From the NCBI RefSeq assembly GCF_023370775.1, contig NZ_JAMCCQ010000002.1:310001-374000 (forward strand): DNA of 64,000 nucleotides, written 5' to 3'. Position numbers and translations under genes: made by a program. This document shows, piece after piece, positions 5,936 through 51,315 of this stretch (position 1 is its first letter; each line of letters starts with the position of its first letter). The notes below the pieces were generated by a model. That model was not told the origin of the DNA, ran no database searches, and saw only the letters and a list, made by a program, of their open reading frames with translations. Source of the DNA: Marivita sp. GX14005. Lineage in GTDB: Bacteria > Pseudomonadota > Alphaproteobacteria > Rhodobacterales > Rhodobacteraceae.

Positions 5936-8900
5936 CTACAAGATGAACGCATCCTCCGATATTCCGACGATTTGCATCAGGAAGCCGTCCGCCACGCCGT
6001 CCACGATCTCGGTGAATGCGGTGTCCGTCTGCGATACCGCGTCCTCCAAGCCGGCTTGGGATCCGTCGAAGGTCTGCATCACCGCGCGTGCCATATCCAG
6101 GTCCGACATGCCGCGCGTGACGGCAAAATGCCCCCCTAGCACGACCTTGTCGGCGAGATAGGCGGCATCGGCCGCGCTTCCCGTCGCGGCCTTCGCGCCT
6201 GCCAGGATGGCCTGAATGAAATTCGGTGCCGCTATCGTGCCCTCTTCGAGCTGACCCAGCCAGTAGGACATTCCCTGCGCGTCGGGCTCCCGCCCCAGGA
6301 CATTGCGATAAACGGAGGTGACAAAACTATCGATGTCGTCAAGAGAGCCGTAAAGAGACCGTGTTTCCGGCTGATCGAAAAACGCTTCGGCAATACGTTC
6401 GAGGCTCATTCCATCTGCCAGCCGATCACCCCAGTAGTTGAGGCCGATCGCGTCCGGCGCGCGGTTGAAATAGGCGATGTAAAGCTCGGTCAACGCCATC
6501 ATGTCCGCCGTGCCGAGCGCGGCCATGCCGTCGAACAGGCCAATGGGCATTCCCTCCGGGCCGAAGGGCGCGCTTTCGGTTTCGAAATCGAGGAATTCGA
6601 CGTTCCGCATCGTTGCCGTCTCAGCCGCACCGCGTTGAGTGACGGTGAGTGTGTCACCGGACAACAGCAGCGTGTAATCCGATTGCGCCCCTCGCAGAAC
6701 GACCGCGTCCGCGCCCGCCCCGCCGTCGATCTCATCGCGACCGCCCCCGGAAAAGATCTTGTCATCACCCCCACCGGCTTCGATTCTGTCATCGCCATTC
6801 GTGCCGCGCAGCGTTTCGCTCGCGTCGCTGCCGGTGACGGCGTTGAGCGATGCCGGAGCGTGCGCGCTGTCGACGAAGGGGCCAACGATCGGATCGGGAG
6901 GCGCGGCGGTCTGATGCTCTGCCAACCAATCGACGATCCGATCGAAATTCTCCGCGACGCTCGGATGGATTGTGTCCGCCAAATCCATGCCGGCAGGCGG
7001 CGCCTTCCCGTAAAGCGTCGCGTAGTGGATGAGCGATGCAAGGAAATAAAGGGTCGGCGTGCCTTGCCCGCTGTCATCGGCGAAAAGATCCGCCGGATCG
7101 AGACCCGAAAGTTCGAGTGCGGGATCATCCAGCATGGCAGCGATTTCGGGACCGGCGGCGATCAGCCGTATATTCAGATCGGGCCGCGCCGCCTGCAGCG
7201 CGTCGGTCAGGGATACCCACCAATCGTTCCACTCGCCAAGCATGTAGTCACGCCATGCGGCGTATTCCGCATCGGTCGGCGGAAAGGAGGAGGTGGACCC
7301 ATCGAGCTCCGGCCAGGTCTGGTAAATGTTGATGGCCGCGCCGGGCGCGCGCGCCTCGGCCCAGTCGATGGTCTTGAGGGCGGAGGCGATGGGCGTTGTG
7401 CTCGGGTCGATCCAGTAGGGACGATCCGGCGTTTGGTCCTGCACAAAATTGACCGCCGAAATCGTGATCTGGTTGAACCCTGCTTCATCGAAGCGCTGCC
7501 CTGCATCACGATCCCAGGCTTCCTGCACCGTATCGACAAGAACATGAGGATTCGCGGGAAGATCGTCATGCTTGGTCAGCATTCCGGTCTGAATGGCGGC
7601 GGCATAGCTGCTCCCGGCGCTCTCGGCCATGACATTCGTCCAATGTGCGACCGAAAGTTCGGGATCGCCGATGGCCCAGGCGAAAAGGCTGTTTCCGAAC
7701 ACGTATTCTCTGACATCATCCATCGGCGCGGTCGGGTTCGGCTCCGGTTGCGGGTTTGGCGCGGGATCAGGAACTGGCTCGGGGATCGGATCGGGCGACG
7801 GCTCCGGCGGGGTGTCGGGTTCGGGATCGGGGTCGATGTCCGGCGGAGGGCTATTGTCCGAACCGCTTCCCCAGGTGCCGTCCTTCATATGGTCCGGCGC
7901 GGGATGCGATTGCATCAAATCCTCGATCGCGTCATGCCGTGCGGTATCGTCGAGCAGGTGGCGCAGCGAGCCCCAGCTGCCCCATTTGTTGGGATCGGAG
8001 ACATCGACAAATGCGTTGAAAAGCGTGCCACCAGCCGCTTCCCATCCGGCGAGCAACTCGCTGTAGAGCTGCCCCATGCCGCCCGAATAGTTCAGATAGG
8101 TGAAGAATTCGGTCAGAAGATCGTTATTGGCCCAATTGCCGATGCCCACCACATGCGTGCCGCCCTCGTACATCACGAGGTCGAGCCCGTGCGCATCGGC
8201 GACGGATTTGTGATAGGCGAAAAGATCGAACAGCCCGGCCAGCGAATCCTCGCCATCGCCGGTGACGGATCCATCGCGCAATTCGCGCACGGCCAGTTCC
8301 TCGGCAAGATCGAAGCGGTGTTCGGCAACGTACCGATCCGCATCGGGTCCGCGGAGCCCGCGCGACGATGCCTCCTGCCGCGCCTGCGCCTCGCTTTGGG
8401 CAATCCAGTCGAGAACGGTGGGCGCCTTGGCATCGGTGCCGAGGCTATTGCCGAAATATCCCGTGATCGCATAGGTGTCGAAGGACAGGAAGGGCGCAGC
8501 GTTCGCCGCGCTTTGCGCTTGCCAAGCCGGCGCTTCGAGGATCGCTTCTTCCAGACCCGGCCAGTATGTGTGGGTCGAGATGACCTTGACCAGCCGATCG
8601 GGATCGTTGGCGTAAACCTGATCGAGAACGCGTGCCATTTCCGCCGAGCGCGCGCCGTATTCCTGAACCCAACCATCGCCAAGCGCCTGACCGAAGCGCG
8701 CCTCAGCCGATTGCGCGGCATCCTGCGCCTGATCGAACATCCAGTTCCAGACCTCGTTCGACAGCTCGATATGCGCGCGCAGATCGGGGTCGAGGTGATC
8801 GCGCACATAGGCCGCGAATTCCCGGATATAGGTCGCATCGGCATCCCAGGGGATGTTGAACCAAGGCTCCGTTCCGGTGAGATTGGCAAGCTCGACCATC

Positions 8901-9565
8901 ACTTCGACCGGCACGCCGGTATGGTAACTGTAATCGCCGGGCGCGGGGCGGTCTTCCCAATGCCGCAGGGTGGAATCGTTGGTTTCCTGCCAATCCATGA
9001 ATCGCAGGGAATGTGCGTCCTTGATGACGTCGAGCCAGAGGGGATTGAAAAGCTGCCCGGACTCGTAGGCTCCGATATGTTCCTCTTTCACGACCTCGAT
9101 ATTGCGCAGATAGTCACCGCGCCCCGCCGGATCGGTCGACCGTATCGACACGGTCACCATGTTCTCGCCATTGGGCTCGTAGTCGAACCAGATTTCCCCG
9201 TCACGCTCCGAGATGACATCGGCACCGGAAACGGATATATCCCCCGCGCCGTCATAGCTCAGCCGATAGACACCTGCCGTGTAGCTTGCTTCGGTCGGCA
9301 TCTCGGTGAGAAGGAAACTGTCGATCCGTTCAACGCCGGGCGGCAGTTCGGTGATCCAGCCGTTTTCATCCAGAACGCCCATCGCCTCGAGATCGTCGGC
9401 CCGGTAGGCGCCCCATTGCCCTTCGGTATGGGCGTGCCACGGGCGCGCCGATTTGAAGACGTTGAGAAAGGGTTGTTGAACGCTCCAGTCCACAACGCCG
9501 CGCAGTCCGAACGCCATCGCGGCTGCAGAGGTTTGCGTGCCGAACACATCGGTCAAGGGTTCCAT
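5936..9565 (-). CDS. secreted multidomain protein: glycosidase-like, SGNH-like, RTX, DUF4214
   Basis: About 1209 residues. The N-terminal 560 residues look like a retaining glycoside hydrolase of the clan A type, with a candidate acid/base in LSNEVWNW (about residue 271) and nucleophile in MYEGGTHV (about 467). A Pro/Asp/Glu-rich linker (about 575-615) follows, then an SGNH-hydrolase-like domain (FGNSLFAW ... DTIHPS), a short RTX block (GGGDDKIFSGGG) and a C-terminal DUF4214 domain (RAPDAIGLNYW, GREPDAQGMSYW). There is no signal peptide and the calcium-binding C-terminus implies type I secretion. The start was set at 9565 because GGAG lies six bases upstream; an ATG at 9592 lacks a ribosome site. 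The substrate is unknown; a polysaccharide is likely. Confidence 0.82.
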   Translation of the reverse strand: MEPLTDVFGTQTSAAAMAFGLRGVVDWSVQQPFLNVFKSARPWHAHTEGQWGAYRADDLEAMGVLDENGWITELPPGVERIDSFLLTEMPTEASYTAGVYRLSYDGAGDISVSGADVISERDGEIWFDYEPNGENMVTVSIRSTDPAGRGDYLRNIEVVKEEHIGAYESGQLFNPLWLDVIKDAHSLRFMDWQETNDSTLRHWEDRPAPGDYSYHTGVPVEVMVELANLTGTEPWFNIPWDADATYIREFAAYVRDHLDPDLRAHIELSNEVWNWMFDQAQDAAQSAEARFGQALGDGWVQEYGARSAEMARVLDQVYANDPDRLVKVISTHTYWPGLEEAILEAPAWQAQSAANAAPFLSFDTYAITGYFGNSLGTDAKAPTVLDWIAQSEAQARQEASSRGLRGPDADRYVAEHRFDLAEELAVRELRDGSVTGDGEDSLAGLFDLFAYHKSVADAHGLDLVMYEGGTHVVGIGNWANNDLLTEFFTYLNYSGGMGQLYSELLAGWEAAGGTLFNAFVDVSDPNKWGSWGSLRHLLDDTARHDAIEDLMQSHPAPDHMKDGTWGSGSDNSPPPDIDPDPEPDTPPEPSPDPIPEPVPDPAPNPQPEPNPTAPMDDVREYVFGNSLFAWAIGDPELSVAHWTNVMAESAGSSYAAAIQTGMLTKHDDLPANPHVLVDTVQEAWDRDAGQRFDEAGFNQITISAVNFVQDQTPDRPYWIDPSTTPIASALKTIDWAEARAPGAAINIYQTWPELDGSTSSFPPTDAEYAAWRDYMLGEWNDWWVSLTDALQAARPDLNIRLIAAGPEIAAMLDDPALELSGLDPADLFADDSGQGTPTLYFLASLIHYATLYGKAPPAGMDLADTIHPSVAENFDRIVDWLAEHQTAAPPDPIVGPFVDSAHAPASLNAVTGSDASETLRGTNGDDRIEAGGGDDKIFSGGGRDEIDGGAGADAVVLRGAQSDYTLLLSGDTLTVTQRGAAETATMRNVEFLDFETESAPFGPEGMPIGLFDGMAALGTADMMALTELYIAYFNRAPDAIGLNYWGDRLADGMSLERIAEAFFDQPETRSLYGSLDDIDSFVTSVYRNVLGREPDAQGMSYWLGQLEEGTIAAPNFIQAILAGAKAATGSAADAAYLADKVVLGGHFAVTRGMSDLDMARAVMQTFDGSQAGLEDAVSQTDTAFTEIVDGVADGFLMQIVGISEDAFIL

Positions 9566-9921
9566 GTCCCACTCCAATTTCGTTAGCCTCATCGGTCTTG
9601 TTCGAGGCTGAAATCGGATCGTGTTTTCAAAGCGGCATGTTTGCGGAGAATTTGGCTTCAGGACGGACGTTCCGCAGGGCGATCACGGCCACAAGACCGC
9701 CGTAAAAATAATTAAAACCAGTTACTTATGAGGATTTCTCCAATAAGGCTGTTTTGTGGCGAACCGCCTGACCTCGCGGCATGCAATATCGAAAATTTGG
9801 CTAAAATAGCGTAGCGTCGCCGCATCAGTTCGATGCGTCCGAAACATAAGATATTTAGATATTTTGAACTAAACTAATGCTACCATGGCGACGCGGCCTA
9901 ATCGCCGCAATCGCCCGGCGA
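9566..9921. other. AT-rich intergenic region, gene-free
   Basis: About 355 bases without a credible gene, clearly richer in A and T than the surroundings (for example 9700-9730 and 9845-9880). It lies upstream of the secreted glycosidase-like gene and downstream of irr, so it probably carries the promoter of the former on the minus strand. No clear hairpin, operator or RNA gene could be recognised. Confidence 0.5.
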
Positions 9922-10338
9922 TCAGGTCTTGCGCAGTTTGATCACGACATTGACGCTCGCGATTTCCGCACCCTTTGGCGGGTTGGGAATCCGCGCGATC
10001 TCGAGCTGTTCGGCCGGTGCGTCGGTCAGTCTGCCGTCGTCTTCCCAAAAGAAGTGCGGATGGTCATGTGTGTTGGTGTCGAAATAGCTGCGCGCGCCAT
10101 CAACGGTGACCTCCTGCATGAGTCCGGCATCGCAAAAGGCCCGCAGCGTGTTGTAGACGGTCGCGAGCGAAACCTGTTCCCCGGTATCCTTGACGGCGGC
10201 AAAGAGGCTTTCCGCAGTCACATGGCGGTTCTTGCCGTCCCCGACCAGAAGCGAGGCGAGCGCCACGCGCTGACGGGTGGGGCGAATCCCGCCCTCGGCC
10301 AACCATTGCGTTCCGCGTTCCGTTTCTGTCGAGGCCAT
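9922..10338 (-). CDS. irrA: Fur-family iron response regulator Irr
   Basis: A 138-residue Fur-superfamily repressor. The N-terminal winged helix reads GIRPTRQRVALASLL ... VSLATVYNTLRAF. The metal/heme region THDHPHFFWEDDGRL is the Irr variant of the Fur histidine cluster. In alphaproteobacteria Irr responds to heme/iron status and controls iron-sparing genes. It is transcribed away from fabA-fabB-fabI, an arrangement typical of Rhodobacterales. A CCTT-N5-AAGG element (10363-10375) in the shared promoter region could be a promoter or operator part, but this is not established. Confidence 0.93.
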   Translation of the reverse strand: MASTETERGTQWLAEGGIRPTRQRVALASLLVGDGKNRHVTAESLFAAVKDTGEQVSLATVYNTLRAFCDAGLMQEVTVDGARSYFDTNTHDHPHFFWEDDGRLTDAPAEQLEIARIPNPPKGAEIASVNVVIKLRKT

Positions 10339-10512
10339 GCCATTCTCGTTTGCCGTGTCTTGCCTTTATATAAGGTGCGGCGCAGGGGGTTTTCAAACGA
10401 AAATCCCGTATTTCCATGTGTCGCTGGCGTTTCCGGCGCGGGCTTGCATGGGCGACGGGGGCGGTGGTAGACGAAGCGAACCGCATATATTCCAGTCAGG
10501 AGCCGCTTGCCC

Positions 10513-22315: not shown

Positions 22316-22351
22316 CCACGCCCGGGCAGCGGCGTAACGGAACGAAACATC

Positions 22352-22397
22352 CCGTCACAACGGCTTCCTGACGTGACGGCAGACCTTATTGGAGCAA
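22352..22397 (+). promoter_or_regulatory. SAM/SAH riboswitch of metK
   Basis: A stem CCGTCAC (22352-22358) / GTGACGG (22373-22379) encloses a loop containing AACGGCTTCCTGAC. GGCTTCC (22362-22368) can form a pseudoknot with the metK ribosome site in TTGGAGCA (22389-22396), three bases before the ATG. This matches the SAM/SAH riboswitch class of Rhodobacterales metK leaders, in which ligand binding hides the Shine-Dalgarno sequence and lowers translation. Confidence 0.93.
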
Positions 22398-38843: not shown

Positions 38844-41800
38844 ATGAATGCGATTGATTTCGTTGCCCGTACCCCTGCGGGTGCGACCGAGCGCGGTGTT
38901 GTCGGGGAAAGCGGACAGGCTCTTCTGATCGACGCCGGGGGTGGGCGTCAGGTGTCCCTCAACCTTCATCGAAACGATCTGCGCGGCTACGACCGCGCGG
39001 GAAACGATCTGCAGATCACGCTGGCCGATGGGCGCGTGATCGTGCTGGAGGATTATTTCGGCGCCGAAGGGTCGGGCCGCCTGTTCCTCAGCACGGACGG
39101 TGTTCTGCACGAGGTCAGTTTCGCGCAGGGCGATGGCGGTGCGCTGTTCGCGCAATATGGCGAGGTAGCGAGTTGGGGCAAGTGGAGCCCCGACGATGCG
39201 CTGATCTTCTTTGACCGGCCCGAGGTGGTTGCGGCCGATATGGTCGCGGCCGAGGAGGAGGGTGGCGTGTCCATGCTGGCAGCCGGTTTGCTGGCCGGCG
39301 GCGGGTTGCTCCCGGTGCTCGGCGCGGGCGCCGCTGTGGCGACCGGCGCGGCGGTGATGGGCGGCAATGGCGACGGCGACGACGATGGCGGCAAGCTGGT
39401 CGACTCGGGCGGCGAAGCGGGCGGTCCGATCACTCCGACGGTGAATGACGGCGAGGTGAAGATCGGCGGCGACGATCTGACCGACGAGGACCGCACCGTT
39501 CTGGTGAGCGGCACCGCCAATCCCGGCGATACGATCACCGTGGTAATCGGCGACAAGACGCAGACAACCACGACCGGCGATGACGGAACATGGGAGGTGA
39601 TCTTCACCGGCCCCGATTTCCCGGCCGATGGCAGCTACACCGCCGATGTGACGGTGACCGGAGAGGTGGACACGACATTGACGGGTCCCACGGTCATCAT
39701 CGACACCACGCCGCCGCCCGTCGCCATCACCAGCGGCACGATGGCGAGCGGAGAGATCATCACCGACAGCGAATTCGACGGCGGCGCGACCGTGACCGGC
39801 ACCACCGAACCGGGCGCCTCTGTCGCGCTGGTCGCTGGCGGTGTGAGCCACGGCGCCGATGTCGATGCGCAGGGCAACTGGAGCGTCACGCTGACAAGCT
39901 CGACTTTCGAGCGGGGCGAATACGTCGCCGATATCAAGGTCGTGGCGACCGACAGTTTCAACAATTCCACGACGATTACCGATGGCATCCAGATCGACAC
40001 CGTGTCCGGCGTGACCATCGATGCCGCCATGATCGAGACCGATGGCGTCATCAATGACGAGGAACGCGCCGATGGTGTGCAGATCACCGGCACCACCGAT
40101 CCCGGCTCGGATGTTTCGGTCGAGATGAACGGCTATACGCGCGCGGCCAATGTCGATGCGCAGGGCAACTGGAGCGTCACGTTCGCGGCAACGGAAATTC
40201 CCGTGGGCGAGCAGATGCTGACGATCAACGCGACCGCGACCGATGCGGTCGGCAATGTCAGCGAAGCGGCGGGCGATGTGCGACTCGATACATGGGTGCG
40301 CAATTTCGACATCACCAGCGAAGCGGGCGGCGCGGATGGCGTCGTCAATGGCGAGGAAGCGGAGCAGGGCCTGAGCGTCACCGGCACGACAGAGCCGGGC
40401 GCAAATGTCACGATCAGCCTCGGCGGCGTTTCCCGCCCCGGAACCGTCGATGCGCAAGGCAACTGGAGCGTGACCTTCCTGCCGGGCGAATTGCCGGGCG
40501 GCGAGCAGAGCGCGATCCTCACGGCAAGCTCGACCGATCCGGCGGGCAATACCGTGACCGAGACCCGCAACGTGGTGTTCGACACCGACGCGGGCCTTCT
40601 GACGATCAGCCCCGAACCGGTCGAGGGCGATGATATCGTCAACCAAGTCGAAGCCTCCGATGGCGTGACACTGACCGGCACATCGACGCCGCATCAGATG
40701 GTTGATGTGGCGCTCGATGGCGTGACCAAGACGGTCCAGACCGATGCGTTCGGGCTCTGGTCCGCGTCCTATGGGGCGGGCGAAGTGCGCCCCGGTGAAC
40801 ATGAGGCGCAGATCACCGCCTATACCGTCGATGCCGCCGGCAACGAACTAACGCGCACCGACAGCGTGATGGTCGATACCATCGTGCGCAATTTCGCGGT
40901 CAGCAGCGCGCCTGTCACCACCGATAACGTCGTGAACGGGGCCGAACATGCCGCCGGCGTGACGCTCAGCGGCACGACCGAGCCGGGCGGCTCGGTCACC
41001 GTGGCTGTCGAGGGGATCACGCGGATCGCCACTGTCGATGCGCAGGGCAACTGGAGCGTCAGTTTCTCGCCTGTCGATCTGCCGACCGGCACCTACAGCA
41101 CCACGGCGCAGATCAGCACCGAGGATGCCGCCGGAAATACCGCGACGACAACCAAGATGTTCCGTGTTGATACCGAGGTTGCGCCGCTCACCTCGACAAC
41201 CACTCCCGGCGGCGCCGATGGTGTTGTAAACGCGGCCGAAGCCAAGCAGGGCTTTACCCTGACCGGCGATGTGGAGCCGGGCTCGAGCGTCACGGTCACG
41301 ATCGACGGTCAGACGATGACAGCGCAGGTCGCGGTCAGCGGCGCTTGGTCCGTGGCCGTTCCTGCGAGCATGATCCCGGCGGCCGATGGGGATACGGTCT
41401 CCATCGGGATTTCCGCCACGGATCGGGCGGGCAATACTGAATCCATCACGCAGGAGATGGTCGTCGATACCATCGCCCCGGATGCGCCGGACATGACCTC
41501 GATCACCCGTGACGATAGCGAGCAGGTGCGCGGTCTGACTCTGGAAACGACGGAGCATGACGTCGCGATCAGCCGCGTGACGGGGAGCGGCGGGCATCAG
41601 CCGGTGGAAGTGACCGAATACGTTCAGGGCGATGAGACGCAGTATAGTTTCAATCAGAACGTCCCGGACGGCTCGCATCTTGTCGTCACGCAGACCGATG
41701 CGGCGGGCAACACGTCCGGCACCTATATCTTCGTCGATGATCCGGCCTCGACGCAGAACGGCGTGACCGTGATCGGCAATCAGGGCGCGAACGAGATCAA

Positions 41801-42038
41801 GTCCATCGATCTCGAATTCGCCGACAACGCATCGCTTACCCTGACCGAAGCACAGGTTCTGGCCCTGTCGGGAGACACGAACGAAGTGCAGGTGCATGGC
41901 AACGCGAACGATTCCGTAACCCTTGCGGGCGCCACAAAAAGCGGCGCGCGCACCGAGAACGGAACGACATTCAACGTCTACGATCTGGGCGATGCCACCG
42001 TGCTGATCGACGAAGATATCGGAAACGTCACGATCTGA
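38844..42038 (+). CDS. BapA-like repetitive adhesin, type I secretion substrate
   Basis: A 1064-residue protein. Residues 1-130 form a BapA/LapF prefix-like domain, followed by a hydrophobic Ala/Gly segment (about 140-172) and an acidic Gly/Asp stretch. Then come about seven Ig-like repeats (about 200-890) with motifs such as TGTTEPG and VDAQGNWSV, and a distinct C-terminus (about 900-1064). No Sec signal peptide is visible. GAGG lies upstream of the ATG. The next three genes encode a type I secretion system, so it is probably exported to the surface for attachment or biofilm formation. Confidence 0.87.
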   Translation: MNAIDFVARTPAGATERGVVGESGQALLIDAGGGRQVSLNLHRNDLRGYDRAGNDLQITLADGRVIVLEDYFGAEGSGRLFLSTDGVLHEVSFAQGDGGALFAQYGEVASWGKWSPDDALIFFDRPEVVAADMVAAEEEGGVSMLAAGLLAGGGLLPVLGAGAAVATGAAVMGGNGDGDDDGGKLVDSGGEAGGPITPTVNDGEVKIGGDDLTDEDRTVLVSGTANPGDTITVVIGDKTQTTTTGDDGTWEVIFTGPDFPADGSYTADVTVTGEVDTTLTGPTVIIDTTPPPVAITSGTMASGEIITDSEFDGGATVTGTTEPGASVALVAGGVSHGADVDAQGNWSVTLTSSTFERGEYVADIKVVATDSFNNSTTITDGIQIDTVSGVTIDAAMIETDGVINDEERADGVQITGTTDPGSDVSVEMNGYTRAANVDAQGNWSVTFAATEIPVGEQMLTINATATDAVGNVSEAAGDVRLDTWVRNFDITSEAGGADGVVNGEEAEQGLSVTGTTEPGANVTISLGGVSRPGTVDAQGNWSVTFLPGELPGGEQSAILTASSTDPAGNTVTETRNVVFDTDAGLLTISPEPVEGDDIVNQVEASDGVTLTGTSTPHQMVDVALDGVTKTVQTDAFGLWSASYGAGEVRPGEHEAQITAYTVDAAGNELTRTDSVMVDTIVRNFAVSSAPVTTDNVVNGAEHAAGVTLSGTTEPGGSVTVAVEGITRIATVDAQGNWSVSFSPVDLPTGTYSTTAQISTEDAAGNTATTTKMFRVDTEVAPLTSTTTPGGADGVVNAAEAKQGFTLTGDVEPGSSVTVTIDGQTMTAQVAVSGAWSVAVPASMIPAADGDTVSIGISATDRAGNTESITQEMVVDTIAPDAPDMTSITRDDSEQVRGLTLETTEHDVAISRVTGSGGHQPVEVTEYVQGDETQYSFNQNVPDGSHLVVTQTDAAGNTSGTYIFVDDPASTQNGVTVIGNQGANEIKSIDLEFADNASLTLTEAQVLALSGDTNEVQVHGNANDSVTLAGATKSGARTENGTTFNVYDLGDATVLIDEDIGNVTI
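39861..41345 (+). repeat. tandem ~294-base coding repeats (Ig-like domains)
   Basis: A nearly identical stretch encoding VDAQGNWSV recurs at 39861, 40152, 40446 and 41034. Degenerate copies near 40740 (TDAFGLWSA) and 41327 (VAVSGAWSV) fill the gaps. The period is about 294 bases (98 residues). The DNA similarity makes copy-number change by recombination likely. Confidence 0.8.
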
Positions 42039-42123
42039 CGCGAAGGACCGATCGTTCGGACCGGCAAGACGCGCGGTCCGGGCCCCGACACAAGACAAGG
42101 TTTTACGCGGGGGCTCAGGGAAG

Positions 42124-43440
42124 ATGAGGCAGAGCAGAAGAGCCATCGCTGGCGCATTGCTTGCGGCGACCGCCTTGTCGGGATGCCTGAAGGACGTTCG
42201 AGACGGAGATGCCGTCTCGCGTTTCCTGAACGTCCTGCCGGGCGCGGAAGGCCCGCGCGTGCCGCCCGCCACCGACAGGCAGGCCGCGGTCTCGCCAGTC
42301 ATCCTCGATCTCTCGGCGCGGCAAAGCGTTCTTGAACCGGGCACCCCCTATGCCGAGGTTGCCGCCGGTGTGCTGGCCGCCGATGCGCGGGTGGCCGAGG
42401 CGGAGCTGCAGGTCGCCCAGCTTCGCGCCGAGGCCGCGTCGCGTAACTGGCTGCCGACCCTTTCGCCGCGCGTGTCGCTGACCTCGCTGGGCGATCTCGT
42501 CGCCGACCTGGTGCTCAATCAGGTGCTGTTCGACAATGGACGCAAGAAGGCCGAGCGGGACCTTGCGAAAGCCGATGTCGAACTGGCCGCTGTCGCTTTG
42601 TCGGAAAGCAGCAATTCGCGGGTGCATGAGGGGCTGAGCCTCTACCTGCAGGCCGAAGAAGGCCGCGCGGCAAGCCGGCTTTACGCGCAGGCGCTCGACG
42701 AGATGGCGCGGTTCGAATGGGTCATGCAGGAGCGCGTAAGGGGCGGGGTGTCGGATCTGTCGGATCTCAGCGTGGTGCGGCAGAAGCTTGCCAATCTGCG
42801 CGCGCGGCATGCGGCGGCAGAGGAAAAGACGGTTCGGGCAGTGGCGGAGCTGGAGGCGATGGCGTCCGTGCCGCTCGGGGATCTGCGCGGGCTTGGAGAT
42901 CTGCGCCAGGTAACCCAGGTTGAGCCGCCCGAGGTCCTGCGCGTCATGGTCGAACGCGACCGGCAGCTGGCGAAGGCGCGCATTGCGCGGGCGCAACATC
43001 TGCCCGGTCTGTCCTTGGGCGGGAGCGCACGTGGCGGCGCCGATAGCGTCACGCTGACGGGCAGCAGCGACACGCCGCTCGGTTTCGGCACGGGCGCTGC
43101 GCTCCGTGCCGCCGAGGCGGGCAAGCTGACCGCTGATCGCAAGGTCACCGAAGCGCGCGATCTGGCCCGCCGCGCCATCGAGGCCGACGCACGTGAGCAG
43201 GCCGCGCTGGCCCGGCAAGCGGAGGAAGCCGCGCTGCTGACCCGGCAGGCGAAGGAAAACCTCGATCTCTTCCGCCTGCAATACGAATCCGGCACGCGGC
43301 AGGTCATGGATGTGGTCGGAGTTTACGAAACCTTCCTGCGAGCGTTGGAGAAGGAACTCGATCTGAAATACCGCGCCGCACGGGCAAGGCTCGACGCGGC
43401 GAAGCGGCTGGGCGTTCTGGCCGATGGGGCGCGGATTTGA
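42124..43440 (+). CDS. TolC-family outer membrane lipoprotein of type I secretion
   Basis: A 438-residue outer membrane efflux protein with a lipobox (ATALSGCLKD) and long helical heptads (AEAELQVAQLRAEAASR; ATDRK-like ADRKVTEARDLARRAIEADAREQ) typical of the TolC tunnel. It is the outer duct for the adhesin encoded upstream. AGGGAAG precedes the ATG. It overlaps the ABC transporter gene by four bases. Confidence 0.9.
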   Translation: MRQSRRAIAGALLAATALSGCLKDVRDGDAVSRFLNVLPGAEGPRVPPATDRQAAVSPVILDLSARQSVLEPGTPYAEVAAGVLAADARVAEAELQVAQLRAEAASRNWLPTLSPRVSLTSLGDLVADLVLNQVLFDNGRKKAERDLAKADVELAAVALSESSNSRVHEGLSLYLQAEEGRAASRLYAQALDEMARFEWVMQERVRGGVSDLSDLSVVRQKLANLRARHAAAEEKTVRAVAELEAMASVPLGDLRGLGDLRQVTQVEPPEVLRVMVERDRQLAKARIARAQHLPGLSLGGSARGGADSVTLTGSSDTPLGFGTGAALRAAEAGKLTADRKVTEARDLARRAIEADAREQAALARQAEEAALLTRQAKENLDLFRLQYESGTRQVMDVVGVYETFLRALEKELDLKYRAARARLDAAKRLGVLADGARI

Positions 43441-45656
43441 GCGGGCTGTCGAATATCAGGCTCGTCGGCGGGCCAGCGGGCAATGCCGTGCTGCGCATGG
43501 CCCCGGAGAGCCGCGCGGCCGCGAACGAGCCGGGCCGCGCGCCGCGCCATTCGGACCGCATCCGCGCGCGCACCGAATTGATCCGCGCTTATGCGGGCCG
43601 GCTCGGCCTTCCCACCGCCGCCGCCGATATTCAGGACGCGATGAGCCGGCATCCCGGCACAGACGGCGCTGTCGGCGAAGCGGCGCTTCTGGCAGGTGTG
43701 AAAGCGGCCGGGATGCTCGCGCAGAGCCGCCATGGCGCGCATCTGACGCCGGACCAATGGCCGGCCATCGCACTGATGACGAATGGCCAGGCGGTGCTGG
43801 TCCTGTCACAGGACCGCATGACGCTCACCATCTGGGACGAAACGGCCCCGGACCGAACCGAACGGGTAGAGGCATCGGAGTTCGCGCCGTTTTTCAGCGG
43901 TGTGCTGATCCGGGGCGAGGCACCTGTCGAAACGCTGGTTGGACTGCACGCCGAAAAGGGTGATGATCCGCACTGGTTCTGGGGCAGTTTCGCGCAATAT
44001 GGGCGCCAGTTCGGCGAGGTCGCTCTGGGATCGTTGGTCGCCAACCTGCTCGCGGTGGCCGTCGCGCTTTTCTCGCTGCAGGTCTATGACCGCGTGATCC
44101 CGCATCAATCGACGGCCACGCTCTGGGTGCTGGCGATCGGGGCGGGAATGGCGATCGTTCTGGAAGGGTTCCTGAAAGTCGCGCGGTCCAGCTTGCTCGA
44201 TGGCGCGGGGCGGCAGATCGAAACCGGCGTGCAGAAGACGCTTTTAAACCGGATCCTCGGGATGCGCTCCGACACTCCGGGCCGCGCGCCCTCGCAGCTT
44301 TTCGCCGCCATGCGCGAATTCGCCTCTGTGCGCGAGTTCTTCACCGCATCGACCATCGGCGCTTTGGCCGATATCCCGTTCATTCTGCTGTTCCTCTTGC
44401 TCGTGTGGTCCATCGCGGGCAGCGTTGTCTGGGTTCTGATCGCGGGCGCGCTGCTGATGGTCGTGCCGGGCTTCCTGCTTCAAAAGCGAATGATTCGCAT
44501 CACGCAAGCGATGCAGGGCGCCTCGACCCGGCAATCGCGCCTGCTCAACGAAGCCGTGAGCGAGCTCGACACGATCAAGACGCAGCGCGCCGAGGACCGT
44601 TTCGCCCGGCAATGGGAAGAGTTGACGAGCGTTCAGTCGCTCAAATCCTCCGAACAGCGCCGCCTTGCAGCTGCGCTGACATTCTGGAGCCAGGGCGTGC
44701 AGCAGGCCACTTATGTCGCCGCCGTCATTGCGGGCACCTATCTGGTGTTCGCCGGCGAATTCACCGTCGGCTCGATCATCGCCGTGGGCATCCTGACCTC
44801 GCGCACGCTTGCGCCTCTGACCCAGCTTTCGGGCATCATGGCGCGTTGGGGCAACGTCCGGGCCGCGCTCGATGCGCTGGGCGGGGTGGCGGAACTTCCG
44901 CAGGATCGCAGCGACGGCCGCAAATACCTGCGCCGCGACCGGCTGAACGGGCGGTTCGAGCTGCGCGAAGTGGCGTTTCGCTATGACAAGGAAAGCGTAG
45001 CGGTTCTCGATATCCCCGGCCTTGCGATCCAGCCCGGCCAGACGCTCGCCATCCTCGGTGCGAACGGGTCGGGCAAATCCACCCTGCTCAAGCTTCTCGC
45101 CGGGCTTTATGGGCCGACTTCCGGAACGATCCTGATCGACGGCACGGACATGAGCCAGATCGACATGCGCGATCTGCGCCGCTCCATCGGCTATCTCGGT
45201 CAGGACGTCCGGCTGTTCCATGGCAGCCTGCGCGACAATCTGAACCTCAACATGCTGGAGCGCGATGACGACCGGCTTCTGGCCGCGCTGGATTTTGCCG
45301 GGCTCGGCCCGTTCCTGCGCGGCCATCCGCAAGGGCTTGACCTGGAGATCCGCGATGGCGGGGAGGGGCTTTCTGTCGGGCAGCGCCAATCCATCGGCTG
45401 GGCGCGCCTCTGGCTTCAGGATCCGGCGATTTGCCTGCTCGATGAGCCGACCGCGGCGCTGGACCAGACCTTGGAGAAAACGCTGATATCGCGGCTCGAA
45501 ACCTGGCTTGAGGGCCGGACTGCGGTAATCGCGACGCACCGGGTGCCGATCCTTTCGCTGGCAAGTCGGACCAGCGTGCTGGCCAATGGCCGCCTCGTCG
45601 TGGACGGGCCGCGCGACCGGGTGCTCGACCATCTGCGCACGGCGCAGGGAACTTGA
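43437..45656 (+). CDS. type I secretion ABC transporter (LapB-like, degenerate peptidase domain)
   Basis: About 739 residues. An N-terminal C39-like domain (about 30-180) lacks the catalytic Cys, as in LapB-type exporters; then membrane helices (about 190-460) and the ATPase domain with Walker A GANGSGKSTLL and Walker B ICLLDEPTAALD. The signature is LSVGQRQ instead of LSGGQRQ. The listed start is TTG overlapping the tolC stop; an ATG at 43497 is possible. It powers export of the adhesin with the TolC and HlyD partners. Confidence 0.92.
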   Translation: MSGLSNIRLVGGPAGNAVLRMAPESRAAANEPGRAPRHSDRIRARTELIRAYAGRLGLPTAAADIQDAMSRHPGTDGAVGEAALLAGVKAAGMLAQSRHGAHLTPDQWPAIALMTNGQAVLVLSQDRMTLTIWDETAPDRTERVEASEFAPFFSGVLIRGEAPVETLVGLHAEKGDDPHWFWGSFAQYGRQFGEVALGSLVANLLAVAVALFSLQVYDRVIPHQSTATLWVLAIGAGMAIVLEGFLKVARSSLLDGAGRQIETGVQKTLLNRILGMRSDTPGRAPSQLFAAMREFASVREFFTASTIGALADIPFILLFLLLVWSIAGSVVWVLIAGALLMVVPGFLLQKRMIRITQAMQGASTRQSRLLNEAVSELDTIKTQRAEDRFARQWEELTSVQSLKSSEQRRLAAALTFWSQGVQQATYVAAVIAGTYLVFAGEFTVGSIIAVGILTSRTLAPLTQLSGIMARWGNVRAALDALGGVAELPQDRSDGRKYLRRDRLNGRFELREVAFRYDKESVAVLDIPGLAIQPGQTLAILGANGSGKSTLLKLLAGLYGPTSGTILIDGTDMSQIDMRDLRRSIGYLGQDVRLFHGSLRDNLNLNMLERDDDRLLAALDFAGLGPFLRGHPQGLDLEIRDGGEGLSVGQRQSIGWARLWLQDPAICLLDEPTAALDQTLEKTLISRLETWLEGRTAVIATHRVPILSLASRTSVLANGRLVVDGPRDRVLDHLRTAQGT

Positions 45657-45660
45657 GCCG

Positions 45661-46842
45661 ATGACGCTGAGCACGACCGACCTTTCCGCCCAACTCGGTC
45701 GCCGACTGCGCGGCCCGTCGCTGGTGATCTGGCTGTCGGCCGCGGCGCTGTGGCTCTTCGTCATCTGGGCGGCCTATGCCTGGATCGACGAGATCGTGCG
45801 CGCCGAAGGCGAGTTCATCTCGACGTCGCGGCCTCAAAGCATCCAGAACCTCGAAGGGGGTATCCTGGCCGAATTGCTTGTCCGGGAGGGCGACGAGGTC
45901 AAGAAGGGCGACATCCTCGCCCGGCTCTACGGCACGCAATTCGAATCCTCCGTAGGCGATCTCGAGGACCAGATCACCGCGCTGGAGATCCGCCGGCTGC
46001 GGATCGAGGCCGAAATGGCCGGACTGGTCGAGTTCGTCATCCCGCCGCATCTGGCGCAGCGCAGCCCGGAAATGGCGGCGTCCGAAAAGGCGCTTCTGGC
46101 AGCGCGACAGCTCGATTTCGAGGCGCGGCGCGACGGCGCGCGCCGCGTTCTGGAGCAGGCGACCGAGGAAAAGCGGCTTTTGGAGGACCTTCTGACCAAA
46201 AAGGTCGTCGCGCTGATCGAGGTGACCCGCGCGCGAAAGGCCCATGCCGATGCCCGCATCAAGCTGGACGAGATCGTGACCCAGGCCGAGCTACAGCGCG
46301 CGCAAGCCTATTCCGAGACATTGAAGGAACTCGCCACGCTGAAGCAAAACCTGCGCGCCTCCCGCGACCAGTTGAACCGGACGGTGTTGACCAGCCCGAT
46401 GCACGGGATCGTCAACAAGCTGGGCGTGACGACGATCGGCGGCGTCGTGCGGCCGGGCGAGGAGATCCTGCAGATCATCCCGCAGGACGAGGAGCTTTTC
46501 GTCGAGGCCCAGGCGGCCCCGCGAGATATCGGCGGGCTGCGCCCGGCGCAGGCGGCGACGATCAAACTGTCGGCCTATGATTACACGATCTACGGATCGT
46601 TGAGGGGCCATGTCGACGTGATCTCCGCCGACAGCTTCAAGGATCCCCGCCGCCCCGAGGCGCCGGCGCATTACAAGGTCACCGTCCAGATTGATCCGAC
46701 TTCGATCACCGAGCGGCAGCGCAGCCTCGACCTTCGCCCCGGCATGCAGGCGACGGTCGAGTTTCACACTGGAGAAAAGACGGTGCTGCAATACCTGCTC
46801 AAGCCGCTCTACAAGTCCCGCGAAGCCCTGCGCGAGCCATAG
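45661..46842 (+). CDS. HlyD-family periplasmic adaptor of type I secretion
   Basis: A 393-residue membrane fusion protein with one N-terminal helix (LVIWLSAAALWLFVIWAAYAW), a lipoyl-type segment (SIQNLEGGILAELLVREGDEVKKGD), long coiled coils (about 90-230) and the family motif LTSPMHGIVNKL. It bridges the ABC exporter and the TolC duct. ATG 45661 is four bases after the exporter stop; longer frames lie inside the previous gene. Confidence 0.93.
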   Translation: MTLSTTDLSAQLGRRLRGPSLVIWLSAAALWLFVIWAAYAWIDEIVRAEGEFISTSRPQSIQNLEGGILAELLVREGDEVKKGDILARLYGTQFESSVGDLEDQITALEIRRLRIEAEMAGLVEFVIPPHLAQRSPEMAASEKALLAARQLDFEARRDGARRVLEQATEEKRLLEDLLTKKVVALIEVTRARKAHADARIKLDEIVTQAELQRAQAYSETLKELATLKQNLRASRDQLNRTVLTSPMHGIVNKLGVTTIGGVVRPGEEILQIIPQDEELFVEAQAAPRDIGGLRPAQAATIKLSAYDYTIYGSLRGHVDVISADSFKDPRRPEAPAHYKVTVQIDPTSITERQRSLDLRPGMQATVEFHTGEKTVLQYLLKPLYKSREALREP

Positions 46843-46966
46843 ACGTGGAAACGTGCGCGATCCCCGTCGCGAGCCTCTTCACCGGGTTGCCGAGCATTCG
46901 GAAATAGAAGAGGCGGGGGCGGCGTTTGCGGATGAACAGGTTTTGCCATCGTCCAAGGGCGGCAGG

Positions 46967-47866
46967 CTACCGCATGGATGCAGAAGACGGATGTTGGTAA
47001 AACGCGCTGTGCGGTGCCGGGAGGAACACCTGCGGAAAGATGCTGTGCAGCCAATCGACCACGGTATGTACCTTTTTCATCTCGCAGGTGTCCGGGTGCA
47101 GATGCAGTTTCAGGGTCCGGTGCAATTCCGGCGGACCGGGCGCGACACGCCGGAGGCGGCGGTCCTGTTCGGCGAGACACATCGGCAAAAGACCCTTGCC
47201 GATCCCGCCCGCGATGGCCGCAAGGAGAATGCCGGCGTCGGTTGCCGAAAGGCGGACCTTTTCATGGGGTCGGCGCATCTGCAAAGCGGCATTGGTAATC
47301 GTTTTCGGGGCGGCGTCTTCATCGAGGAAGATCACCCAATCGTCGGTGTTCGGCGGTGCCTTGCGTGACCGGTAGAGCGCATAGGGCACCTGACCGAGCG
47401 CTACGGCGAATTCACCATCACGCGGGTCAACCTCGAACCAGAGGGACACCGAGGCCTCGCCGCGCGCGATAACGCGCGGGGTCAGGCTCAGAAGTCGCAA
47501 CTCCAGTCGCGGGTGTCGGGCCAGAAAGGCGGGCATCGCGATATCGGCGAGCCTGTTGAGCATCCACGCGTTGCCGAGCAGGCGCACAAGGCCGGCCGAG
47601 CCCTCCATGGCGGTTTCGGACATGTCCTCGGCGAGGGCATGCGCGGCCGTTTCGATCAGGATCGCATGGCGCAGGGCGATTTTTCCGGCGTCGGTCAGGA
47701 CGAGGCCGGACTTGGTCCGGACGAACAGGATCACCCCAAGCTCGGCTTCGAGGCAGGACAGCCTGCGCGCGACGGTGGACTGATCCATTCCGAGGAACAG
47801 CGCGGCCTTCGATTGAGATCCCTCGCGATGCACCGCCAGCAGGATCTTGAGGTTTTCCCATGTCAT
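46967..47866 (-). CDS. LysR-family regulator divergent from the lanthipeptide genes
   Basis: A protein of about 299 residues with an N-terminal helix-turn-helix (WENLKILLAVHREGSQSKAALFLGMD region; STVARRLSCLEAELGVILF) and a LysR substrate domain. Start ATG 47866 (MTWENL) matches the family; an ATG at 47905 would add 13 basic residues. It is divergent from the lanA-like gene and converges on the secretion operon with about 120 featureless bases between them. It may control the lanthipeptide genes. Confidence 0.88.
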   Translation of the reverse strand: MTWENLKILLAVHREGSQSKAALFLGMDQSTVARRLSCLEAELGVILFVRTKSGLVLTDAGKIALRHAILIETAAHALAEDMSETAMEGSAGLVRLLGNAWMLNRLADIAMPAFLARHPRLELRLLSLTPRVIARGEASVSLWFEVDPRDGEFAVALGQVPYALYRSRKAPPNTDDWVIFLDEDAAPKTITNAALQMRRPHEKVRLSATDAGILLAAIAGGIGKGLLPMCLAEQDRRLRRVAPGPPELHRTLKLHLHPDTCEMKKVHTVVDWLHSIFPQVFLPAPHSAFYQHPSSASMR

Positions 47867-47949
47867 GTTCCGTGGCCTTCGAGCGAGAAACGGGTATTGC
47901 CGCATAAAGCCTATGTATTGGTGCCTATTCCGCCGCCTGTCACCTTACG

Positions 47950-47967
47950 GCTAGCATCGATCCTAGC
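47950..47967. promoter_or_regulatory. near-perfect palindrome, candidate LysR operator
   Basis: GCTAGCATCGATCCTAGC is an 18-base inverted repeat with one mismatched pair, lying between the LysR start and the precursor gene, about 80 bases before each start. The place and symmetry suit a regulator site. Confidence 0.5.
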
Positions 47968-48047
47968 ACAGGCAGCGCCCGACGCCGAGATCGGCTGTGA
48001 AAGGCCTGCCGCATTGCCCGAAAATCGCAGCCGTGGAGGAATATGAC

Positions 48048-48377
48048 ATGCCGATCACGTCGACAGAGCTCGAACGGGTCCTGCTGGATGCCAGCCTGCT
48101 CAGGGATTTCCGCAGGAAACTGCTCACCGATCCCGTCGAAACCCTGCGCGGGCGGGGCGTCGATATTCCCGATGGTGTCGAGATCAGGATCGTGGAAGAC
48201 GATTTAAGATCGGTCACGATCCCCATTCCGCCTTTCGTCGGGCGCAACATAGCCGCCAATTCGCTCAACGAGGAATTCGCCGATAACGACTGGACGGCTT
48301 GCACGTTATGCGTGCTCACCTCGATCATCTGCACCGCCGGCACGACCACGTCGATCATCGTGGCGACGCAGGACTAG
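48048..48377 (+). CDS. class II lanthipeptide precursor with nitrile-hydratase-type leader
   Basis: A 109-residue peptide. The leader resembles NHLP (nitrile hydratase leader) precursors: FRRKLLTDPVETL, GVDIPDGVEIRIVED, SVTIPIPP. The C-terminal region after about residue 78 is Thr/Ser/Cys-rich: Cys85, Cys88 and Cys95 with Thr83, Thr86, Thr91, Ser92, Thr96, Thr99-101, Ser102, Thr107 available for dehydration and ring formation. No Gly-Gly cleavage site is visible. GGAGGA seven bases upstream fixes ATG 48048. The LanM gene begins 11 bases after the stop. Confidence 0.9.
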   Translation: MPITSTELERVLLDASLLRDFRRKLLTDPVETLRGRGVDIPDGVEIRIVEDDLRSVTIPIPPFVGRNIAANSLNEEFADNDWTACTLCVLTSIICTAGTTTSIIVATQD

Positions 48378-48388
48378 GGTTTTCGCGA

Positions 48389-51256
48389 ATGGACATGAGG
48401 CCTGCTGTCCTGTCGTTGAGGGAGGCGGAACGGTTGGCCTGCACGCCCGTCCTCGGCCCGGTCTTTGCAGAGCATCTCGCCGAGGAGGAGCGCACGCTCG
48501 AGGCCGCGCTTGGCCGATTTGCGCCGGAGCGCATCGATCATGCCCAGATCAAACGCGATGCGCTGGATTGGCTGCAGGTCATTCTCGGGCGGCTCACGAA
48601 CGAATTTGTCTTTGAACGCTTTGCTGCATTTCGTGCGGTTCATGACCGCTTCTGGAGACCGGGCGTCTCCACAGGTCCGGCGCGACGAACGCTGGTGAAC
48701 TCTTTTTCGTCATCCTCGTTCTGGCGTGACTGCCTTGATGACAGTGGCACCCCGACGCCCCTCGGGCGTCTTTTGGCGAGCCTGACGGAGAACTGGCGTT
48801 CGGCTGTCATGGAAACGGTCGAACGGCTCGACATGCATCGAAAAGAGGCGGCGGCGATCATCAGCCCGGGCGCGACCGATCCGGGACGACTAGAAACGCT
48901 GGAATTCGGTCTTTCCGATCTGCATTGCCACGGACGTTCCGTGGCGATCGCGCGTTTTGCCTTGGGGAGCGTGGTCTACAAACCGCGCGACATCACCACC
49001 GAGCAGGTCTGGAACGACACCTTCGCCTACGTCTTGCAGCGCACGTTCGGGGGAACGACCGATATGCCGCGTGTGGCGAGGATGGCCGGTTTTGGACTGG
49101 TCGAACACATCCGTCCGGCGCCCTGCGAAACCGAAAGCGATGTGGAGGACTGCTACAGGCGCTTCGGTGCTATCGCCGCGCTTGCGCATGGGCTCGGCGC
49201 GACCGATCTGCATCACGAGAACATCATCGTTCGCGAGGCTGTCCCCTACGTAATCGATGCCGAAACAATGTTGCCTGCGAGCCTGCGGCCGCGGGACGAG
49301 GCTGTTTGTCATGCCGCGCATTCCCTGAACGCGCCCCTTCGGACTTTCCCGTCAATCTATGCGTCGGGCCTGCTTCCCGTCCGTGTCGCACAGCGGCGTG
49401 CGGCAAGCGGGTCGCAGAAGAGCGCCGAGAGCGAACATACGATGGGCGGTCTGGCTCCGTTCGGGTTGGAGGCGATCAATGTGCTGGTGCCGGTCAACCC
49501 CGATACGGACGAGCTTTCCTATGCCGCCTGTCCGGCATGTGAGCGAAGAGTGAGCAACCTGCCATTTCGGGTGGGCCGAACCGTGCTTCCCGTGGACAAG
49601 GTAGGTTTTGTCGTCGAAGGATTTGCCCGGGCCTATGACACGGTTCTCAAGGAAAAAGATGCAATCCGCGATCGCGTGGCCGCCGGTCTGGACACGGCGC
49701 CGATCCGCCTCGTTCCTCGACCGACCCGAATGTATGCAGCGGTCATTGCCAGATCGCTTTGTGCCGAGACGCTGGCGTCACCATCCCGCCGGCGCGCCGC
49801 AATTCGGAGCGATCTTTCCAGCGCGTCCCGTGCCGAGATCGATGTGGACAATACGCTGCTCGAAACCGAGGTTGCACAGGTTTTGCACGCGGATGTGCCC
49901 TATTTCGCGCTCGGTATCCGCGAAAGCATGATCGACGGCGCCGAACTGGGTGCGACGCCCCTGAGGCAGATGAGCGATCGCCTTGGCGAATTGGGCGACG
50001 ACGACAAGGTGTTGCAGACGGCAACGCTCGGGCTTTCTGTCGGGGCGGAGGCAAACATCGTGGACTCGCCGCAGCCGGAAGCGGACCCTCGATTGCGCAG
50101 GTTGAACACGCTGTTGCGGGTCATATCCGAGGCGGCGCAATATGACGCATCGGGATTATGGTGGCCGCAGGTGACGAATGATGAAGGCCGGCCCGGAACC
50201 CGAGCGCATCGCGACCGCGAGGCGCTTTACGATGGCTCTGCCGGTACGGCCATCGTGCTTGCAGAGGTGGGGCGTATTCTCGGTCGATCCGAGCTTTGCG
50301 AGATGGCAAGGGCTGCGTTGCTCTATCCCGGATGCGGCGAACTCGCGGCTGAACGGGGTCCCGGCCTCGCACGGGGTCTGGGCGGATTTTGCTTTGCATT
50401 GCTTCGCGCTGGAACGGCTTTGCAGGATGATGCGATGATCGCACGCGCATTTGATTTGCTGCATCGCCATGCGCCGCGAATGGTCGGATCGGACAGCCCG
50501 AGCGACTTGATGTTCGGGCGTGCGGGATTGTTGATGGCGCTGCTTGCCGCCGAAGCGGCGGAACCCGGTCCGGGCCTTCGGGCAATCGCAGACGGAGTGG
50601 CGCGCAATCTGATCGCGGACAAGGTGGATGGACCTGAAGGATGTTTCTGGCCCGGTGGCACGGGCCGCCCGGCACTTCATGCCGCGCATGGAGCGACCGG
50701 AATCGCGGTGGCATTGGCGCGTTGGACGGCCTTGCGCGGCGATGGGTCGAGCCTGGATACGGTGCGCGCAGCGCTGTCTGCGGATGATCGTTTCTGGCGC
50801 GATCATCTGAACGGCTGGCAGCACGTTCCGAACATAGAACCGCCTGCGGCCGGCTGGAGTTGGTGCGGCGGGCGGGCCGGGGCAGTTTCCGCCCGGAGTC
50901 TGGTATGGAATTTGGTCGGGCATCCGTTCGATATCGAACGCGCGTATCGCGCCGCTTCGGCAGAGGCCGGGGGAAGTCTGGTCCGACCGGCGCTGGGGCT
51001 GTGCTGCGGAACGTCCGGCATATTGGATGCGCTGTTGACAGGGGCGCGGGCTTTGTCAGGCGGCGCTACCCGTGAACTGCAGGCCAGAATGGTGCAACGT
51101 GCGGGTGAGGCAGAAGAAATCTTGATCGGCTCGACTGCGCTCGGAAAAGTGAATCCTCTATTCACAACGCTTTTTTCGGGCGGCGGCGGCGCTGCCGGAG
51201 CGCTCGCCCGGAGCCTTTGGCCGGATCGGATCGGCTCACTGGTCTGGTTCGAATGA
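48389..51256 (+). CDS. lanM: class II lanthipeptide synthetase LanM, ProcM-like
   Basis: A 955-residue bifunctional enzyme. The N-terminal dehydratase domain (DUF4135) shows Lys198 (VYKPRD), Asp273-His275-Asn278 (DLHHEN) and Asp290 (IDAET), the set used to phosphorylate and eliminate Ser/Thr. The C-terminal LanC-like cyclase has zinc ligands Cys826 (WCGG) and Cys872-Cys873 (CCGTSG) and His in AAHGATG. The CCG in place of CHG is the three-cysteine zinc site of the prochlorosin synthetase ProcM group. It would install lanthionine rings in the adjacent precursor. No dedicated protease or exporter follows. Confidence 0.94.
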   Translation: MDMRPAVLSLREAERLACTPVLGPVFAEHLAEEERTLEAALGRFAPERIDHAQIKRDALDWLQVILGRLTNEFVFERFAAFRAVHDRFWRPGVSTGPARRTLVNSFSSSSFWRDCLDDSGTPTPLGRLLASLTENWRSAVMETVERLDMHRKEAAAIISPGATDPGRLETLEFGLSDLHCHGRSVAIARFALGSVVYKPRDITTEQVWNDTFAYVLQRTFGGTTDMPRVARMAGFGLVEHIRPAPCETESDVEDCYRRFGAIAALAHGLGATDLHHENIIVREAVPYVIDAETMLPASLRPRDEAVCHAAHSLNAPLRTFPSIYASGLLPVRVAQRRAASGSQKSAESEHTMGGLAPFGLEAINVLVPVNPDTDELSYAACPACERRVSNLPFRVGRTVLPVDKVGFVVEGFARAYDTVLKEKDAIRDRVAAGLDTAPIRLVPRPTRMYAAVIARSLCAETLASPSRRRAAIRSDLSSASRAEIDVDNTLLETEVAQVLHADVPYFALGIRESMIDGAELGATPLRQMSDRLGELGDDDKVLQTATLGLSVGAEANIVDSPQPEADPRLRRLNTLLRVISEAAQYDASGLWWPQVTNDEGRPGTRAHRDREALYDGSAGTAIVLAEVGRILGRSELCEMARAALLYPGCGELAAERGPGLARGLGGFCFALLRAGTALQDDAMIARAFDLLHRHAPRMVGSDSPSDLMFGRAGLLMALLAAEAAEPGPGLRAIADGVARNLIADKVDGPEGCFWPGGTGRPALHAAHGATGIAVALARWTALRGDGSSLDTVRAALSADDRFWRDHLNGWQHVPNIEPPAAGWSWCGGRAGAVSARSLVWNLVGHPFDIERAYRAASAEAGGSLVRPALGLCCGTSGILDALLTGARALSGGATRELQARMVQRAGEAEEILIGSTALGKVNPLFTTLFSGGGGAAGALARSLWPDRIGSLVWFE

Positions 51257-51315
51257 AGCGCGGGCGATCCCGGCGGATCGCTTGCCGACGTCGCGACCGG
51301 TTGCGCCGCGAACGG

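Follow-up and report, generated by a model that had tools for sequence, protein, structure and literature searches.

The lysR-lanA-lanM locus

The window analysed here is a 64,000-nucleotide stretch of the genome of Marivita sp. GX14005 (Rhodobacteraceae; contig NZ_JAMCCQ010000002.1, positions 310,001 to 374,000), in which the gap between hlyD and dtd (46843-51315) contains three genes: a LysR-type regulator gene, lanA, encoding a candidate lanthipeptide precursor with a nitrile-hydratase-like leader (NHLP), and lanM, encoding a class II lanthipeptide synthetase. The features are, by position in the window:

46967-47905, minus strand: LysR-type regulator gene, divergent from lanA, in the inserted stretch (Pfam HTH_1 and LysR_substrate)
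47906-48047, no strand: lysR-lanA intergenic region, presumed control region (from position only)
48035-48039, plus strand: GGAGG ribosome-binding site, 8 nt 5' of the lanA ATG (sequence)
48048-48377, plus strand: lanA, 109-aa precursor peptide (intact open reading frame, ORF)
48075-48233, plus strand: NHLP leader domain of LanA, residues 10-62 (TIGR03793 match)
48291-48374, plus strand: presumed LanA core, about residues 82-109, with Cys85/Cys88/Cys95 (leader-core boundary inferred)
48389-51256, plus strand: lanM, class II lanthipeptide synthetase, 955 aa (ORF, TIGR03897, PF13575 and PF05147)
48761-49909, plus strand: LanM dehydratase domain, PF13575, residues 125-507 (Pfam)
50222-51067, plus strand: LanM cyclase domain, PF05147, residues 612-893 (Pfam)
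50864-50866, plus strand: zinc ligand Cys826 of LanM (sequence, alignment)
51002-51007, plus strand: zinc ligands Cys872-Cys873, CCG motif of LanM (sequence, alignment)

The original prediction had recognized the gene pair, and its description of a class II lanthipeptide locus with an NHLP-type leader, a three-Cys core and an intact full-length LanM bearing a three-Cys zinc site with CCG agrees with the results below. It had, however, placed the start of the locus at 47866, inside the divergent LysR gene, whereas lanA begins at 48048, and it had overlooked the LysR gene, the insertion between hlyD and dtd, the missing Gly-Gly site and C39 peptidase, and the unusual combination of leader and synthetase.

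LanA carries Cys85, Cys88 and Cys95 and, from residue 83 onward, ten Ser/Thr residues. Its leader matches the NHLP profile TIGR03793 over profile positions 8-60 of 77 with 37.4 bits (E 1.7e-9), a score that falls below the curated NCBI cut-off of 50.9 bits. Since this is the sole TIGR03793 match at E≤1 across the whole 3.45-Mb genome, and since a lax search with the same profile matched five of 14 control genomes, none over the cut-off, the LanA match exceeds chance. A PDB sequence search with LanA returned the NHLP peptide 8tb1 (E 1.6e-6) and nitrile hydratase alpha chains; LanA gave no match to Nif11, and a search with its C-terminal 38 residues found no family in NCBIfam or Pfam at E≤10. 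The AlphaFold model of LanA alone, with a predicted local distance difference test (pLDDT) score of 42.4, was not used. No sigma-70-like promoter was detected between lysR and lanA by a consensus scan, and the LysR-type regulator presumably controls the cassette.

The lanM start codon lies 11 nt after the lanA stop, both genes being on the plus strand. LanM matches TIGR03897 with 342.4 bits, above the cut-off of 304, and fuses a DUF4135 dehydratase to a LanC-like cyclase, the architecture that defines class II. In the alignment, the nine phosphorylation and elimination residues of CylM, as named in the available part of PMC4550811, are all kept (D177, H179, K198, D273, H275, N278, D290, R440 and T446), and LanM deviates from the consensus at only 2 of 47 columns that are ≥95% conserved among the other rows. 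The predicted LanM structure (pLDDT 77.9, predicted template modelling score 0.70) has LicM2 (E 8.4e-29) and CylM (E 2.8e-25) as its best fold matches, with TM-scores of only 0.44-0.53 because the domains are loosely placed. It is the one LanM of the whole genome.

By analogy with conserved enzymology, LanM would read the NHLP leader of LanA, phosphorylate and then eliminate Ser/Thr residues of the C-terminal core, and close thioether rings on Cys85, Cys88 and Cys95. The simplest ring pairing would join Thr83 to Cys85, Thr86 to Cys88 and either Thr91 or Ser92 to Cys95, while the Thr-rich tail may remain dehydrated. As judged from these sequence features, the lanA-lanM pair very probably makes a lanthionine peptide.

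An NHLP leader beside a CCG synthetase

In the LanM set described in PMC10027976, as far as the accessible part of that study goes, NHLP precursors pair with CHG LanMs and Nif11 leaders occur only with CCG LanMs. By joining an NHLP leader to a CCG LanM, the Marivita pair departs from this published pairing. The set consists of homologues of the CHG enzyme RosM, so that the NHLP-CHG rule may be biased, and the loci gathered here bear no test of its CHG half.

For comparison, an alignment of 90 LanM rows was built (our own and 89 others; six of 95 loci gave no row because the ORF was missing or short or the entry was a duplicate). The zinc motif reads CHG in 73 rows, CCG in 12 and otherwise in one, the remaining four being gapped, and all 12 CCG rows are alphaproteobacterial. 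Beside these CCG LanMs, the precursor is NHLP only at the Marivita locus, Nif11-type at seven loci (L022, L026, L027, L028, L033, L034 and L106) and unassigned at four (L024, L025, L029 and L030). The Nif11-type calls at L022, L034 and L106 score 26.0-27.5 with the NCBI profile, under its cut-off of 32.3, and those at L026, L027, L028 and L033 come from a custom profile whose training set included some of these sequences. In the 90-row tree, LanM clusters with other alphaproteobacterial CCG LanMs (Shimodaira-Hasegawa approximate likelihood ratio test, 96) and, in a 25-row tree, with five Nif11-type LanMs (support 83/77). Its branch is very long (3.04 and 2.52, respectively), which makes the placement unsure.

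Three of the unassigned CCG loci hold repeat-bearing peptides without an NCBIfam match at E≤0.01. Upstream of the CCG LanM of another member of the family (G015, L024:6516-7477), small ORFs contain repeated Cys-bearing units and are possible multi-core precursors; near two other CCG LanMs, repeated DADASVSAAA units are found (L029:11908-12303 and L030:11372-11719). Terracidiphilus gabretensis (L078:3835-5503) has four NHLP precursors with Gly-Gly, the peptides shown containing no Cys, at the same locus as a LanM with no zinc motif in its cyclase; this system may carry out dehydration only.

Several known systems resemble the Marivita pair in part; for the published ones, the likenesses and differences are those apparent in the available sections of the reports. 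Phaeornamide from Pseudophaeobacter arcticus (PMC9505594) also combines an alphaproteobacterial NHLP precursor, PhaA, with a class II LanM, PhaM, but its cluster adds a peptide arginase, a hydroxylase, an acyltransferase and the PhaT transporters, and PhaA has a Gly-Gly, none of which is present in the cassette. The NHLP-leader class II families II 2, II 13, II 17, II 25 and II 29 (PMC7268733) and the roseocin-type clusters (PMC10027976) similarly have an NHLP leader and a LanM, with lanA upstream of lanM. The NHLP clusters of PMC10027976, however, have a CHG LanM and, in proteobacteria, an exporter made of HlyD and a double-glycine peptidase, in contrast to the CCG motif and undetected C39 peptidase found here. 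The ProcM/SyncM group (PMC10027976, PMC10783134) shares the CCG zinc motif but acts on many substrates with Nif11 leaders that bear a Gly-Gly, whereas a single NHLP precursor without Gly-Gly was found in Marivita. Finally, the CCG LanMs with Nif11-type precursors at L026, L027, L028, L033, L034 and L106, also alphaproteobacterial, form the nearest, weakly supported tree group; they are only 26-31% identical to LanM, and their leaders end in SGGG or AGAG.

A parallel in organization is found in a second member of the Rhodobacteraceae (G933, locus L176), in which an NHLP precursor stands directly upstream of a CCG LanM about 27% identical to ours. This precursor matches TIGR03793 over its full length with 70.7 bits, over the cut-off, and carries LQNLAAKD at the expected Gly-Gly position. 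C39 was not found in the genome, and a Pfam scan of nine ORFs from the region revealed no ATP-binding cassette (ABC) exporter. The two pairs thus share precursor type, gene order and CCG motif together with the lack of Gly-Gly and of a C39 match, and differ in the core, in the extent of the NHLP match and in genomic setting, the G933 pair having no LysR-hlyD-dtd context.

Lack of a Gly-Gly site and of a C39 match

NHLPs have been defined, in the accessible text of the original description, by a Gly-Gly cleavage site and a co-occurring ABC export system (Haft 2010, PMC2887384). LanA contains no Gly-Gly anywhere in the protein, its NHLP match stopping at profile position 60 of 77, before the Gly-Gly end. 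A C39 peptidase (PF03412) was found neither in the Marivita genome nor in any of the 17 genomes of the genus, using a search that was positive in eight of 14 known genomes.

The two features were tabulated for 16 alphaproteobacterial genomes with a LanM match, the precursor being assignable in 11. A Gly-Gly or Gly-Ala site was present in all seven genomes with C39 (G230, G206, G625, G444, G342, G567 and G470) and in none of the four in which C39 was not found (our own, G933, G250 and G654). Such a split would arise by chance with a probability of 1/330, or of 1/70 if genera are counted instead of genomes. The five genomes with unassigned precursors fall outside this count (G015 and G571, with C39; G247 and G744, without; and G619, a fragment), as does a second LanM with repeat peptides in each of G342 and G470. 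Single-sequence phmmer searches for NHLP precursors in 15 loci returned nothing, and many NHLP genome hits outside LanM loci resemble nitrile hydratase subunits by frame length and were not used. At the G654 locus (L032), an NHLP precursor without Gly-Gly (6638-6991) lies some 1.4 kb away from a LanM-like protein of 676 aa in convergent orientation (8406-10433), which has a dehydratase domain only.

The insertion site and the rarity of LanM

The gene order bapA-like adhesin, tolC, lapB, hlyD, dtd and accA is present in 10/10 genus relatives examined (10 of the 16 others), whose hlyD-dtd gap measures 125-401 bp and in none of which a LysR gene occupies this site. While dtd is found in 17/17 genus genomes, LanM occurs in 1/17. 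Since the order is kept without the cassette in all ten relatives and LanM is confined to one genome of the genus, lysR-lanA-lanM looks like an acquired cassette. Including our own genome, LanM was found in 6/295 family, 9/385 class and 5/390 order genomes, in draws that overlap; as at most two candidates were scored per genome in the large searches, these counts are lower bounds.

The GC content at third codon positions (GC3) is 0.79 for lanA and 0.68 for lanM, and 0.64-0.85 for ten neighbouring genes, eight of which lie at 0.76-0.85. The lanM value fits acquisition but is weak evidence, because other genes of the window are equally low. The cassette borders showed no convincing direct repeats or mobile-element ends. 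Viral contigs yielded no close homologue of lanA or lanM, and none of the stretches matched there was confirmed by tblastn. Among the plasmids searched, LanA had a single weak match, to the leader only of a Thiodictyon NHLP, and all LanM matches were under 60% identity, those listed being 21-28% identical. A scan of genome contigs with LanM yielded 80 loci whose best segments are 23-32% identical.

Two other elements were noted. In 13/16 other genus genomes, the dtd locus contains an RNA-like element that spans about 100 nt and is conserved (19-nt core, allowing up to two mismatches), for example in the hlyD-dtd gaps L172:6194-6558 and L167:11668-12028. Across ten larger regions, it is flanked by inverted GCATATTT...AGAAGAAG-like motifs and its orientation differs between species (four each way and two without it). 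The consensus fold of 13 copies has 28 pairs, two of them with changes on both sides. One copy tested against Rfam gave no match at E≤5, and the element was not found in the window at ≤3 mismatches. Elsewhere in the window, a SAM/SAH (S-adenosylmethionine/S-adenosylhomocysteine) riboswitch scores over the gathering threshold at 22349-22396 (plus strand).

Maturation of LanA and competing explanations

The gene pair, the leader type, the catalytic and zinc residues, the insertion site, the missing Gly-Gly and the lack of a C39 match are read directly from the genomes. The interpretation that we favour, with a probability of roughly 0.62, is that of a horizontally acquired class II lanthipeptide cassette, lysR-lanA-lanM, whose product is matured without C39. 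Since LanA has no Gly-Gly end and no C39 was found, its leader would be removed by another cell protease or retained, and release would bypass the usual peptidase-transporter. A C39-independent maturation route is thus suggested by absence.

Several points weigh against this interpretation. The C39 search used a single profile and a rapid initial screen, which a strongly diverged C39 could escape, and no candidate protease or exporter for LanA was identified. The table linking Gly-Gly to C39 has few entries, related genomes among them, and was drawn up post hoc; of its four members without C39, one (G654) has a LanM-like protein in which the dehydratase is not joined to a cyclase domain. No close lanA homologue is present in the searched collections, making a test of selection impossible, and the very long LanM branch could also reflect relaxed constraint.

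Some of these points would also fit a stranded remnant, that is, a pair which came from a larger cluster, left its exporter-peptidase behind, no longer yields a matured peptide and is drifting. The singleton status of LanM in the genus, the lack of an exporter in the cassette, the loss of the Gly-Gly end and the long branch are all in keeping with such a history, which we nonetheless consider unlikely: both frames are intact, with a ribosome-binding site and tight spacing, LanM keeps 45/47 conserved columns and 9/9 catalytic residues, and the G933 pair, likewise intact, also lacks Gly-Gly and C39.

Export through the genes of the adjacent type I secretion system (tolC, lapB and hlyD, 42124-46842), with trimming by a non-C39 protease, appears considerably less plausible. 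These genes directly adjoin the cassette, and the LapB-type permease scores 681 bits with TIGR03375, short of the cut-off of 693.1, and also gives weak matches to NHLP exporters; LapB, however, has no C39 Pfam match. With the bapA-like adhesin, these genes span 38844-46842 and, being kept without a lanthipeptide in 10/10 relatives examined, likely have this adhesin as their substrate. Because they predate the cassette at this position and come with an adhesin of their own, the adjacency is probably due to chance.

Relaxed substrate use of the ProcM type, put forward in the original prediction, would make LanA one of several scattered substrates of a promiscuous synthetase. The CCG zinc site has been linked to promiscuous LanMs in the accessible part of PMC10027976, but this motif is common to 12/90 LanM rows, and the genome holds one LanM and one NHLP match (Nif11 precursors were not searched genome-wide), which leaves this explanation improbable. 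A lipid II-binding lantibiotic of the mersacidin type, suggested earlier from a loose Cys88-Cys95 likeness, can be set aside as very improbable, the core reading LTSIIC without the Glu of the TxTxEC motif (PMC7268733, in the section available) and matching no mersacidin family at E≤10.

Implications for lanthipeptide biosynthesis

NHLP-led class II lanthipeptides and CCG LanMs are known; what is new, as far as these searches go, is their combination without Gly-Gly or C39. No report linking a lanthipeptide or LanM with Rhodobacteraceae was found in the literature searched, nor, in the accessible parts of publications on NHLP, CCG and LanM, the present combination. An intact and compact pair here breaks three expectations, namely a Gly-Gly site, a matching exporter and a CHG synthetase, and G933 provides a second, diverged case. 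The two-gene unit, with a core for which the libraries searched returned no family, is easy to express, and it makes two questions testable: whether a CCG LanM reads an NHLP leader, and how a lanthipeptide is matured in a cell without detectable C39.

More tentatively, the two pairs may represent a recurrent minimal unit of Rhodobacteraceae, in which an NHLP precursor and a CCG LanM travel as a mobile cassette of two to three genes with a leader off the Gly-Gly/C39 route, a possibility that we consider less likely than not. If true, the products would be freed by a housekeeping protease or act intracellularly with the leader still in place, and the type of leader would no longer go with the CHG or CCG class of the synthetase.

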